A stretch of 64,000 bases of DNA, taken from assembly GCF_031884435.1 (NCBI RefSeq), contig NZ_CP134779.1:4588001-4652000 (forward strand), read 5' to 3'. Both the position numbers and the translations under genes were made by a program. Below, one piece after another: positions 38,803 to 64,000 of this stretch (the stretch's first letter is position 1; every line of letters starts with the position of its first letter). The DNA comes from Bosea sp. 685 (lineage in GTDB: Bacteria > Pseudomonadota > Alphaproteobacteria > Rhizobiales > Beijerinckiaceae). The notes below the pieces were generated by a model, which saw only the letters and a program-made list of their open reading frames with translations, was not told the DNA's origin and ran no database searches.

Positions 38803-41226
38803 CTACCCCCGCAGCGCCGCCCCATAGCGCTTGGCCATCTCGGCGACGATCTTGGCGCCGACCGCCTCGATCTCGGCCTCGGTCAACGTCTTGTCGACCG
38901 GCTGCAGGGTTACAGCCAGCGCAACCGACTTCTTGCCGGCCTCCACGCCTTGCCCTTCATAGAGGTCGAAAACCACGACATCGGCGATCAAGGCCCGGTC
39001 GGCGTTCTGCGCGGTCTTCATCATCTCGCCGGCCGCGATCGTCTTTTCGACGATGAAGGCGAAATCGCGCGTCACCGGCTGGAAGCCCGAGAGCGCCAGC
39101 TTCGGCTTGACCTTGGTCGGCTTGTATTTCGGCAGCGGCAGCGCATCGAGATGGATCTCGAAGGCGACGAGCGGCCCCTTGACGTCGAGCGCCTTCAGCA
39201 CCTTGGGATGCACCTCGCCGAAGGCGCCGATGACGCCCTTGGGGCCGAACTGGAGCGTGGCCGAACGGCCGGGATGCGCCCAGGCAGGACCACCAGTGAC
39301 GATCTGCAGGCCGCCAACCGGGACACCGAGCCCTGTCAGCAGGCCCATGAGATCGGCCTTGGCGTCGAAGACATCGACGGGCTTGGCGGCGCCGTCCCAA
39401 TGGCGGCCGACGCCTTCGAGCCTCGCCGTGCCCCGGCGCAGCCCGGCTGCGGCGATGAACTGCCCCTCAGGCGTGTCATCCTTGAAGACCTGCCCGACCT
39501 CGAACAGCGCGACGTCGCCAAGGCCGCGATCGGCGTTGAGCTGGCCAGCCCGGATCAACCCCGGCAGCAGCGAGGGGCGCATATCGGAGAGATCGGCCGC
39601 GATCGGATTGGCGAGCACAAGCTGGCGCGCGCCGCCGCCGAACAAAGTCGCGGCGTCATGCGAGATGAAGGACCAGGTCACCGCCTCGACGAGACCGCGG
39701 CTGGCGAGCAGGCGCTTGGCGGCGCGGGTGCGCTTCTGCAGCACGGTGAGAACGGGCTTCACCACCTCGCCCTTGATGCGCGGCAATGGCGTCGAGACAA
39801 CGCGGTCGAGGCCCGCGATGCGCACGATCTCCTCGACGAGATCGGCCTTTCCAGCGACATCGCCACGCCAGGACGGAGCGGCGACCTTGACGCGCTCGCC
39901 GGCGCCCGAGACGTGGAAGCCGAGCGAGGTCAGCGCGACCTTCATCTCGATCTGCGGCAGATCGAGCCCGGTCAGGCGCTTGACCTCGGACCAGGGGAAA
40001 TCGATGGCATGGGCGCTCTCGGGCAGATCGCCCTCGAAGACCATCTCGGAGGCTTCGCCGCCGCAGAGATCGAGGATCATCGCGGTGGCGAGATCGAGGC
40101 CCGGACGGGTGAAATCGGGATCGACGCCGCGCTCGAAGCGATAGCGCGCATCGGAGTTGATGCCGAGCGCGCGGCCGGAGCGGGCGATGTTGAGCGGGTC
40201 CCAGAGCGCGCTCTCGACCAGCACATCGGTGGTGGTCTCGCCGCAGCCGGAGGCCTCGCCGCCCATGATGCCGGCAAGCGACTCGACGCCGTGCTCATCG
40301 GCGATGACGACCTGCTCGCCGGTCAGCGTGTAGCTCTTGCCGTCGAGCGCCAGGATCGTCTCGCCGTCCCTGGCCCGGCGCACCGTGAGATCGCCCTTGA
40401 CCTTGGCGGCGTCGAAGACGTGGAGCGGCCGGTTGCGGTCGAAGGTCATGAAATTGGTGATGTCGACCAGTGCGTTGATCGGCCTGAGGCCGATGGCGCG
40501 CAGCCTCGCCTGCAGCCAGTCCGGCGAAGGCCCGTTCTTGACGCCGCGCACCAGCCGCAAGGCGAAGACCGGGCAGAGGCCCTTATCCGCCTCGGCGAAA
40601 TCGAGCGTCACCTTGACCGGGCAGGGAAAGGCCCCGCGCACGGGCAGGATCTGCGGCGTCTTGAGGCCACCGAGCCCGGCGGCGGCGAGGTCGCGCGCGA
40701 CGCCGGCGACGCCGAGCGCATCGGCGCGGTTGGGCGTCACCGCGATCTCGATCACGGCATCGTCGAACCCGGCATAGGCGGCATAGGGCTGGCCGACCGG
40801 CGCATCCTGCGGCAAGTCGAGGATGCCGTCATGATCCTCGGAGAGCTGCAACTCGGCGGCCGAGCAGAGCATGCCGTTCGACTCGACGCCGCGAATGACG
40901 CCCTTGCCAAGCGTGATGTCCTTGCCGGGGATGTAGGTCCCGGGCGGTGAGAACACGCTCTTCATGCCGGTGCGGGCATTCGGCGCGCCGCAGACGACCT
41001 GCACAGGCTCAGCCCCGCCGGTGTCGACCATGCAGACGCGCAGCCGGTCGGCATTCGGGTGCTGCTTGGCCTCGATCACATAGGCGATGGTGAAGGCCTG
41101 GAGAGCCTTCGCCTTGTCCTCGACCGCCTCGACCTCGAGCCCGACGCGGGTCAGCGTCTCGGTGACGGTGTCGAGCGAATCCGTGGTGTCGAGATGGTCC
41201 TTCAACCAGGACAGAGTGAACTTCAT
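38803..41226 (-). CDS. pheT: Phenylalanine--tRNA ligase beta subunit
   Basis: 807 residues, full length. N-terminal start MKFTLSWLKDHL, an OB-type tRNA-binding domain (about 40-150, with HPNADRLRVCMVDTG and VVCGAPNAR), then the B3/B4 editing region, B5 domain, catalytic-like module, and C-terminal anticodon-binding FDX-ACB domain (FQPVTRDFAFIVEKTI). It pairs with PheS as an alpha2-beta2 enzyme. Its ATG overlaps the stop of the upstream glycosyltransferase (ATGA), so pheT translation is coupled to that gene rather than to pheS. Confidence 0.98.
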   Translation of the reverse strand: MKFTLSWLKDHLDTTDSLDTVTETLTRVGLEVEAVEDKAKALQAFTIAYVIEAKQHPNADRLRVCMVDTGGAEPVQVVCGAPNARTGMKSVFSPPGTYIPGKDITLGKGVIRGVESNGMLCSAAELQLSEDHDGILDLPQDAPVGQPYAAYAGFDDAVIEIAVTPNRADALGVAGVARDLAAAGLGGLKTPQILPVRGAFPCPVKVTLDFAEADKGLCPVFALRLVRGVKNGPSPDWLQARLRAIGLRPINALVDITNFMTFDRNRPLHVFDAAKVKGDLTVRRARDGETILALDGKSYTLTGEQVVIADEHGVESLAGIMGGEASGCGETTTDVLVESALWDPLNIARSGRALGINSDARYRFERGVDPDFTRPGLDLATAMILDLCGGEASEMVFEGDLPESAHAIDFPWSEVKRLTGLDLPQIEMKVALTSLGFHVSGAGERVKVAAPSWRGDVAGKADLVEEIVRIAGLDRVVSTPLPRIKGEVVKPVLTVLQKRTRAAKRLLASRGLVEAVTWSFISHDAATLFGGGARQLVLANPIAADLSDMRPSLLPGLIRAGQLNADRGLGDVALFEVGQVFKDDTPEGQFIAAAGLRRGTARLEGVGRHWDGAAKPVDVFDAKADLMGLLTGLGVPVGGLQIVTGGPAWAHPGRSATLQFGPKGVIGAFGEVHPKVLKALDVKGPLVAFEIHLDALPLPKYKPTKVKPKLALSGFQPVTRDFAFIVEKTIAAGEMMKTAQNADRALIADVVVFDLYEGQGVEAGKKSVALAVTLQPVDKTLTEAEIEAVGAKIVAEMAKRYGAALRG

Positions 41227-42410
41227 GAGTGTCCGTCACTTCTCAGATTGGCATGGGACATCGTGGGCGACGCAGCGTTGAGCTGGTCTTCCCCATCCGT
41301 CCGGATCTTCATGGAATTGCCGCGCCAGCTCACTTCTCCGGCGACGAAGGCATAGGCCCAGACGCCGGGAAAGATCAGATCCCGCAGCAGCAGCGCCAGC
41401 GGCATGCGCCAGGAGAGATACCAGCCGACGCCATAGGCCAGCGCCATCTCCGCCACATACCAGGGCAGCAGCACGAGAGCGGGGCCAAGCCATGCGGGAT
41501 ATCCGTAGGCCAGTGCCGCGAAAGCCGCGCACAGCGCCGGCAGCAGCGGGCCGGACAGGATCTCGGGCGCGAAGAAGGGCAGGAACGTCACCCGGCGCAG
41601 ACGCGCCCAGCGGAACTGCCGCTGCACGACGTCATACAAGGAGCGCTGGCCCAAGGGCTGCTCGAAGGGCTGGCCGACGAGATGGACATGCTTGCCGGCC
41701 CGGCGCACCAGCTTGGTGGCGGCCGCATCCTCGGCAATTTCCTCGCCCAGCACGGCGATGCCGCCATTGGCGTCGAGGAAGGGCTTGTTCCAGAGCATCG
41801 ACTTGCCCTGCGCAAAGCCGAAGCCGAGCGCCTCGCCGGCATATTGCCAGCGCGCCTGGAAGGTGTTGAGGAAGGCGCATTCGAGCTCGGCCCAGAAGCC
41901 CTGCGGACGCGAGCCCGCCGGCGTCGAGCAGACGAGCCCGGTGTCGGGGCGCCATGAGGCCAGCATGCGCTGGATATAGTCCCTCGGCATCAGCACATTG
42001 GAATCGGCCAGGATGACCCATTCGGTCGTCGCCGCTTCCCAGCCCTTGACGCAGTTGTTGAGCTTGGGATTGGCGCTGACGGCGACATCGCCGGTGATCA
42101 GGCTGACGCGCTCCGCGCCGAAGCGCCCGATCAATTCCTCGATCAGCGGCACGATCGGATCATCGGCATCGGCGACGCAGAAGATCGTCTGATAGCGGGG
42201 ATAGTCGAGCAGGAGGCCAGACGTCGCCGTCTCCCTGCTGAAGGCCTCGATGCCGCGCACCGGGCGCACGACCGTCACCGGGGGCTGCGCGTCGAGCAAG
42301 GCGCAGCCGGCATCCTTGCGGCGCAGACGCACGAAGGCGATCGCCTGGCAAAGCAGGTTGATCGCGACGGCGAGCGCCGCGAACAGGCCAGCTGATGCCG
42401 CCAGGCTCAC
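41223..42410 (-). CDS. GT21-type glycosyltransferase (ceramide-glucosyltransferase-like) between pheS and pheT
   Basis: 395 residues: an N-terminal membrane segment (about 4-25), a GT-A domain with VTVVRPVRGIE, VADADDPIVP, VILADSNVLM and the QxxRW-type QRQFRWARL, and three or four C-terminal membrane helices. This is the architecture of ceramide glucosyltransferases and HpnI-like enzymes; the lipid acceptor is unknown. I choose GTG 42410, which has AGGGGAGG six bases upstream; the ATG at 42455 would run into pheS. The gene separates pheS and pheT, starts 28 bp after the pheS stop and overlaps pheT by four bases. Confidence 0.85.
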   Translation of the reverse strand: MSLAASAGLFAALAVAINLLCQAIAFVRLRRKDAGCALLDAQPPVTVVRPVRGIEAFSRETATSGLLLDYPRYQTIFCVADADDPIVPLIEELIGRFGAERVSLITGDVAVSANPKLNNCVKGWEAATTEWVILADSNVLMPRDYIQRMLASWRPDTGLVCSTPAGSRPQGFWAELECAFLNTFQARWQYAGEALGFGFAQGKSMLWNKPFLDANGGIAVLGEEIAEDAAATKLVRRAGKHVHLVGQPFEQPLGQRSLYDVVQRQFRWARLRRVTFLPFFAPEILSGPLLPALCAAFAALAYGYPAWLGPALVLLPWYVAEMALAYGVGWYLSWRMPLALLLRDLIFPGVWAYAFVAGEVSWRGNSMKIRTDGEDQLNAASPTMSHANLRSDGHS

Positions 42411-42438
42411 CGCAACCTCCCCTGATGCCGCTGCGCGC

Positions 42439-63797: not shown

Positions 63798-63914
63798 GGC
63801 GCAAGGTCTCTCGATCATCTGAAGCGAACCGGATCGAAACATCGCGGCGCCGGATATGACAAGGCCCGGCGCTGGGGCCGGGCCTGAGCCAAATCGCATA
63901 ACGGACACCGCCCG

Positions 63915-64000
63915 TTATTTGGGCGCGAGCACCATGACCATCTGGCGGCCTTCGAGCTGCCAGTCGCTCTCGACCTTGGCGACGTCGACGAGATCGACCT
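63915..64000 (-). CDS. infC: Translation initiation factor IF-3, C-terminal end only
   Basis: The last 28 codons, reading VDLVDVAKVESDWQLEGRQM and ending VMVLAPK, match the conserved IF-3 C-terminus. The gene starts beyond the right edge. IF-3 keeps 30S subunits free and checks initiator tRNA. The next minus-strand ribosomal genes, rpmI and rplT, are 14.7 kb away rather than adjacent. Confidence 0.9.
   Translation of the reverse strand, partial: VDLVDVAKVESDWQLEGRQMVMVLAPK

Follow-up and report, generated by a model that had tools for sequence, protein, structure and literature searches.

A candidate ribosomal-protein leader RNA at rpmI and an accessory-gene hotspot between infC and rpmI in Bosea

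Control of ribosomal proteins L35 and L20 by L20 is a textbook case of an mRNA mimicking rRNA, and the solutions differ in Escherichia coli and Bacillus. The L20 operator of E. coli takes in the end of infC, and translation of infC interferes with it (PMC6962249), which ties infC and rpmI together; the operator acts on rpmI and, through rpmI, on rplT. In B. subtilis, the L20-interacting RNA stands at the head of the infC operon and acts through a terminator (PMC6097659). Eckert and Weinberg (2020) name L20 leaders in Gammaproteobacteria, Firmicutes and Deltaproteobacteria, and the main text of their paper mentions neither rpmI nor L35 (PMC7247131). Here we describe a candidate leader in 64,000 nucleotides of DNA from Bosea sp. 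685 (contig NZ_CP134779.1, positions 4,588,001 to 4,652,000; this whole stretch is called the window throughout), where a conserved hairpin lies directly upstream of rpmI, the gene for L35. Our search of the open-access literature found no rpmI or L35 leader in Alphaproteobacteria.

The hairpin occupies positions 49331-49366 of the minus strand, is matched by our covariance model at 49317-49370 with 53.7 bits, and ends 85 nt before the start of rpmI. It consists of a stem P1 (49366-49359 paired with 49338-49331), a stem P2 (49358-49355 paired with 49343-49340), a bulged T at 49339 and the loop TGATAAGGGCT at 49354-49344. The consensus has a covarying P1, a nearly invariant P2 (GGC/GCC), the bulged U and a loop ending in RGGGCU or RGGGCAU. 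In a MAFFT alignment of 68 rows, 66 of them distinct, 97.5% of cells pair. Among the distinct rows, 48 cells are changed on both sides of a pair, against 7.5 ± 2.2 in shuffled alignments and 1 to 9 when the structure is slid along the sequence, and RNAalifold recovers the identical 12 pairs without guidance. The rpmI leader element is thus a covarying RNA structure, with the covariation signal confined to P1 and with P2 barely varying in the 68 rows. These rows were drawn from 82 candidates by dropping, by eye, 13 near-duplicates and locus L059, which has a very large loop; L024, with a broken P2, and L076 were kept, and L034 had too little upstream sequence. A wider set of 55 hits gives 80 double-changed cells against 17.3 ± 3.4 in shuffles, in an alignment made to the model and thereby fitted to the structure; the set includes at least four hits that are not leaders (second hits in L073 and L162, antisense hits in L047 and L054). 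Taken alone, the 72-nt leader of the window folds somewhat better than its shuffles (z -1.97).

Upstream of the hairpin lies a block resembling a promoter. On the minus strand of the window, a -35 hexamer TTGCCA (49399-49404; CTTGCC at 49400-49405) and a -10 hexamer CATACG (49376-49381) are separated by a 17-nt spacer, and the -10 hexamer ends 9 nt before the hairpin. The position is conserved: 56 of 57 Bosea genomes have CTTG[CT] at -39 or -38 relative to the start of the hairpin. When the best -35/-10 pair is taken at each of 77 named loci, the spacer is 17 nt long at 68. At 67 of the 77, the -10 hexamer ends 9-12 nt upstream of the hairpin, so transcription is predicted to start near the hairpin foot; in shuffled upstream sequences, unlike the real loci, the hexamer distances are spread out. 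Over the 57 Bosea genomes, the majority base has a mean frequency of 0.74 across the 50 nt that precede the hairpin and of 0.42 across the 50 nt further upstream, and 13 classes of upstream neighbor, defined by gene and strand, stand before the conserved block. The nearest upstream gene end is 49 nt before the hairpin, excluding two negative values that come from doubtful antisense calls.

Downstream, the predicted transcript covers rpmI (49045-49245, minus strand; NCBIfam TIGR00001, 76.0 bits) and rplT, encoding L20 (48627-49016, minus strand; TIGR01032, 158.4 bits), both above cut-off. An intrinsic terminator lies 3' of rplT at 48574-48605 on the same strand, with a 14-bp stem and a fold of -28.3 kcal/mol (z -5.19). 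The first-pass annotation of this DNA had placed a strong terminator there (48576-48603), and as a structure it is real; it is absent from the output of a simple pattern scan.

The leader reaches well beyond this genome. By pattern search, all 65 readable genomes of the Bosea genus have the hairpin, and so do 77 of the 79 named loci that could be read, each time in place; L076, where it was recognized by eye with a changed bulge, brings the named loci to 78, and L024 has a broken form. Run against 142 genomes of the class, the covariance model yields 34 hits at E ≤ 0.01, of which 16, including 10 of the best 11, lie 15-74 nt upstream of an rpmI match on the same strand. Of the 135 class genomes with rpmI, we also took a further 80, those with the highest rpmI scores among the genomes still lacking a hit. 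In their rpmI upstream regions 12 hits reach E ≤ 0.021, and among 43 listed hits the 13 best all share the strand of rpmI. Of these 80 regions, 40 contain the core GGGCA?TGCC, where shuffled sets average 1.05 and never exceed 4; the GGCATGCC core is self-complementary, which inflates antisense counts (18 of 80 for GGGCA?TGCC). A scan of 249 genomes of the phylum gives 42 hits at E ≤ 0.001, of which 30 were read as loci. In 29 of these 30, all within the class, the hit is just upstream of rpmI on its strand; L282, the only locus read outside the class, is not upstream of rpmI, and the hits in G272 and G414, two of the three genomes outside the class, are not among the loci read. Among the hits listed, 29 of the 30 genomes that belong to the order are represented, 26 of them verified at rpmI. 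Nearly all of the Hyphomicrobiales examined thus carry the leader upstream of rpmI, and other Alphaproteobacteria carry it sporadically. One leader-model hit, at G067:C88:62614-62667 (E 1.7e-5), lies on a contig other than that of rpmI. No Rfam 15 family reaches its gathering threshold in the window; around rpmI, Rfam up to E 10 returns two implausible eukaryotic RNAs only, and over 20 further loci two tRNAs only.

The element can be set beside the described systems point by point. Like the E. coli operator, it stands directly upstream of rpmI; unlike that operator, it is wholly intergenic and behind promoter-like hexamers of its own, an arrangement that would leave infC and rpmI untied. Like the B. 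subtilis RNA, it is a structured 5' leader of an operon containing the L20 gene, but it leads rpmI and not infC. With the candidates of Eckert and Weinberg (2020), the deltaproteobacterial L20 leader among them, it shares covariation and a constant position before ribosomal-protein genes. The general marks of a ribosomal-protein leader are present, namely a constant place upstream of a ribosomal-protein gene on its strand and a covarying RNA structure, and these point to a new candidate leader at rpmI, with L20 or L35 as putative ligand. Since T is enriched right after P1 (a mean of 3.5 of 8 positions against 1.3 further on, and at least five in 14 of 77 named loci), attenuation could be one way in which the leader works. 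The single terminator-like match before rpmI lies inside the hairpin and is at chance level (1, against 1.3 in shuffles). A pseudoknot between the GGGC of the loop and a downstream GCUY is possible, both sides barely varying.

The dependence of rpmI on infC can be judged from loci in which the two genes are close. In 24 of 73 named non-Bosea loci, infC is less than 500 bp from rpmI, and the leader and its hexamers are present there too, with infC only 0.2-0.5 kb away. As the leader is present both with and without an adjacent infC, rpmI-rplT probably had its autonomy before the genes were dispersed. The earlier claim that dispersal removes a shared control of L35 and L20 from the infC leader is therefore not upheld, since rpmI has its own hexamers and leader even next to infC. 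Judging from sequence, we consider it likely that rpmI-rplT forms a transcription unit of its own with a candidate leader, that this makes the junction between infC and rpmI breakable, and that the junction has become an accessory hotspot in Bosea. In this scheme, rpmI-rplT would be transcribed from its own promoter upstream of the hairpin to the rplT terminator, and L20 (or L35) would use the hairpin as an autogenous leader to hold down its own synthesis, via translation or attenuation. The leader would be independent of infC translation, unlike the E. coli operator. Because little upstream of the promoter would matter to rpmI-rplT, the infC-rpmI junction would tolerate insertion, and in Bosea modules from a pool of the genus would turn over there between conserved flanks.

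The alternative that survives best is that the hairpin stabilizes the mRNA end, or is a site on double-stranded DNA for a DNA-binding protein, and is no autogenous leader. The hairpin does lie where the transcript is predicted to begin, and in the 77 named loci 30-163 nt separate its end from the start codon, so that the hairpin itself does not cover the ribosome-binding site. A protein site on DNA, however, is hard to reconcile with a P1 in which both strands vary freely in sequence and yet still pair, and the near-invariant loop and bulge exceed the needs of a mere stabilizer. The position before rpmI in nearly all loci read from the phylum scan also argues against this reading, though 18 of the 34 class-scan hits are without an established position upstream of rpmI. 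We regard this alternative as rather unlikely, if deserving of serious consideration, and prefer the autogenous leader.

The same autonomy bears on how the genes around rpmI came to be spread out. The first-pass annotation had read infC, rpmI, rplT, pheS and pheT in canonical order, all on the minus strand and 14.7, 5.1 and 1.2 kb apart, and NCBIfam matches bear this out. Besides rpmI and rplT, these are pheT (38803-41226; TIGR00472, 683.9 bits) and pheS (42439-43521, alternative start 43548; TIGR00468, 332.8 bits), both above cut-off, and the C-terminal end of infC (initiation factor IF3; 63915-64000), a gene that runs past the window end and whose main match, covering most of the gene, is at 4651915-4652415 of its own genome contig on the minus strand (238.1 bits). 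The gaps are 14.67 kb between infC and rpmI, about 5.1 kb between rplT and pheS and 1.2 kb between pheS and pheT. A genome search for infC, rpmI and pheS found a single match for each.

Bosea are the nearest named relatives; we searched 67 genomes of this genus for infC, rpmI and pheS, called genes in the rpmI region of all 67 with a codon model and clustered the proteins into families. The gene caller is crude, some genes unique to single genomes may be erroneous, and one cluster took in both substrate-binding proteins of the window. Among the 58 genomes with infC and rpmI on one contig, order and strand are kept in 56, and the gap ranges from 232 to 23,047 bp with a median of about 5.5 kb. 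Interval counts exclude the eight members of a small-genome clade treated below. The infC-rpmI interval, readable in 55 genomes, shows 35 arrangements built from 40 gene families and is empty in one genome. Three nearby intervals are uninvaded: a405-infC in 54 of 54 genomes, rpmI-rplT in 57 of 57, with a spacing of 28-29 nt throughout, and abh-LeuB in 45 of 45. The cargo is a reused pool that includes a racemase, substrate-binding protein, aminotransferase and RpiR module, the CheW/Cache gene, a TetR-MFS pair (named by eye) and a block of acetyltransferase, aldo/keto reductase, LysR and substrate-binding protein genes, among others; in G025 a similar module sits in the rplT gap instead. Hotspots of horizontal transfer show rapid turnover between constant core genes, often without recognizable mobile elements (Oliveira et al. 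2017, PMC5635113), and the infC-rpmI interval has the same core flanks and high gene turnover in its 55 genomes. The likeness is one of gene turnover; unlike those hotspots, the Bosea interval cuts an essential translation cluster and was compared across species of a genus. The 25-kb dispersed array of the window is one large state of this turnover, an ordinary kind of hotspot, and the dispersal seems to do no harm.

These counts weigh on the view, implied by the first-pass annotation, that a small number of insertions, each gap being datable, broke up a once intact infC-rpmI-rplT-pheS-pheT operon under shared leader control, and that L35 and L20 thereby lost that control. The conserved order and strand do favor genes pushed apart by insertion, and that part of the claim stands. 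A glycosyltransferase gene between pheS and pheT, present in 54 of 55 genomes, is nearly fixed and hence could be placed on a tree. Against discrete events stand the 35 arrangements in 55 genomes and the presence of leader and hexamers where infC is adjacent. A further point comes from G035, which is compact at both infC-rpmI and pheS-pheT and is nested among dispersed genomes in a tree of infC, rplT, pheS and pheT. Grouping the 30 other sampled Bosea together against G035 and four outgroup rows is rejected (p-AU 0.00167; 35 of 63 rows), a grouping that was named after the first tree had been seen, with tree genes that come from the studied locus. This rejects G035 as the ancestral compact state, and because it is nested inside the dispersed clade its compactness was most likely regained. 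The infC-rpmI gaps are mosaic and reversible rather than single datable insertions; the idea that each gap marks a datable event does not survive, and dating is workable at best for the glycosyltransferase. We judge an operon broken by a few such insertions improbable.

Between pheS and pheT the separation is of another kind. The interval holds four families and is empty in one of 55 genomes. In the window its occupant is the glycosyltransferase gene (41223-42410, start uncertain, up to 42455; HpnI-like, below the HpnI cut-off), on the same strand as both neighbors and overlapping pheT by 4 nt, so that pheS, the glycosyltransferase gene and pheT probably still form one transcription unit; pheS and pheT would be kept joined by a same-strand gene. 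The earlier statement that transcription is now split thus fits rpmI-rplT, which looks separate, but not pheS-pheT, which still looks joined.

Looseness at infC is not peculiar to Bosea. Beyond the 24 named non-Bosea loci with the genes less than 500 bp apart, the distance is 0.5-2 kb in 14 and 2-10 kb in 12; infC is elsewhere in the locus in two, five are undecided, and in 16 of the 73 no infC was found within at least 9 kb upstream of rpmI. The infC-rpmI junction is loose throughout the order. Relatives with scattered genes do exist in part, as these 16 loci and the small-genome clade show. This clade, filed in the same genus, comprises G034, G037 and G041-G046 (L117, L120 and L124-L129); two of its eight members have infC and rpmI on one contig, at distances of about 43 and 78 kb and with infC on the downstream side. 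In several members pheS is on the opposite strand or displaced, and the leader has a different P1 sequence with pairing kept. In the named loci L015, L020, L034, L036, L037, L041 and L042, from Beijerinckiaceae or their kin, pheT is found downstream of rplT and encoded on the other strand.

A further reading takes the slot for a place where mobile elements integrate (a tRNA, integrase or transposon target), with the translation genes as bystanders, and is very improbable: cargo is variable, and in G063, among three genomes with genes inspected, two genes near the cluster look transposase-like by eye, but the window has no tRNA, no integrase family was found among the 40 window open reading frames scanned, and the recurrent cargo is metabolic and regulatory and common across the genus (single-genome genes being unannotated).

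Several results weigh against an autonomous rpmI-rplT unit with an autogenous leader as the source of the breakable junction. The leader is not the sole reason a junction opens: the rplT-pheS interval is also invaded (31 families, empty in 3 of 57 genomes), and so is pheT-abh in 5 of 47 (one family; 42 of 47 empty). A strict sigma-70 scan of 48400-49600 finds 0 promoters (0.1 in shuffles), and the promoter weights used above were set after the sequences had been viewed. To the 18 class-scan hits of unestablished position is added the range of the leader: of the 135 class genomes with rpmI, 39 of which had a search with strict filters only, 28 show it, and outside the order it is found in a minority. 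A second leader hairpin with a conserved GCU, also considered, does no better than chance, with 35 of 76 where 34.2 would be expected. The signature of L20 mimicry is two consecutive G-C pairs and a conserved AA dimer resembling 23S rRNA (PMC7247131); the invariant G-C pairs are present, but AA precedes GGGC in only 17 of 77 named loci (56 of 65 Bosea-genus genomes). At the sequence level, likeness to 23S scores 18.0 in Bosea against a shuffled mean of 15.6, with 15% of shuffles as good, and Methylobacterium and Ensifer do no better than shuffles. Because the AA signature is unconserved and the 23S likeness not significant, we file the hairpin as a candidate ribosomal-protein leader and not as an L20 leader. 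No 23S rRNA was found in the Bosea sp. 685 genome, rated 100% complete, by the Rfam family or by a pattern allowing up to two mismatches.

The remaining genes of the window fill its two larger gaps. The accessory cassette between infC and rpmI (49537-63818), identified from profile matches plus names given by eye, encodes two substrate-binding proteins, LysR regulators, a 3-oxoadipate:acetyl-CoA acetyltransferase, a CheW/Cache protein, an RpiR-type regulator, an aminotransferase, racemases and a class II aldolase; an aldo/keto reductase and a LysE-like protein were identified by eye. Its part at 49537-63042 is rich in genes for amino-acid uptake and conversion (the two substrate-binding proteins, racemases and the aminotransferase) beside the CheW/Cache protein. 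Between rplT and pheS (43587-48401, mixed strands) lie three small plus-strand genes, one of them SCO1/SenC, a LOG-family protein (plus) and an M20-type hydrolase (minus). The start codon of infC is apparently ATT behind AGGAGA in 35 of 36 Bosea-genus regions with a motif match (67 searched), and E. coli infC likewise begins with ATT. The same start is found in B. subtilis infC (PMC6097659). It is likely that infC has kept its own feedback by IF3.

The leader, more than the dispersed operon, is the part worth following. A broader proposal, which we put forward tentatively, is that a new autogenous L35/L20 leader RNA with a GGC...RGGGC(A)UGCC core, found across Alphaproteobacteria, replaces the infC-dependent operator of E. 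coli and made the upstream junction openable, loadable and reclosable. If true, such an infC-independent leader would add another solution beside those of E. coli and Bacillus, in a group with tractable strains. It would also suggest a rule for operon decay, in which a junction before an autonomous promoter and leader may open freely and reversibly, while a junction inside the unit, such as that between rpmI and rplT, stays closed.

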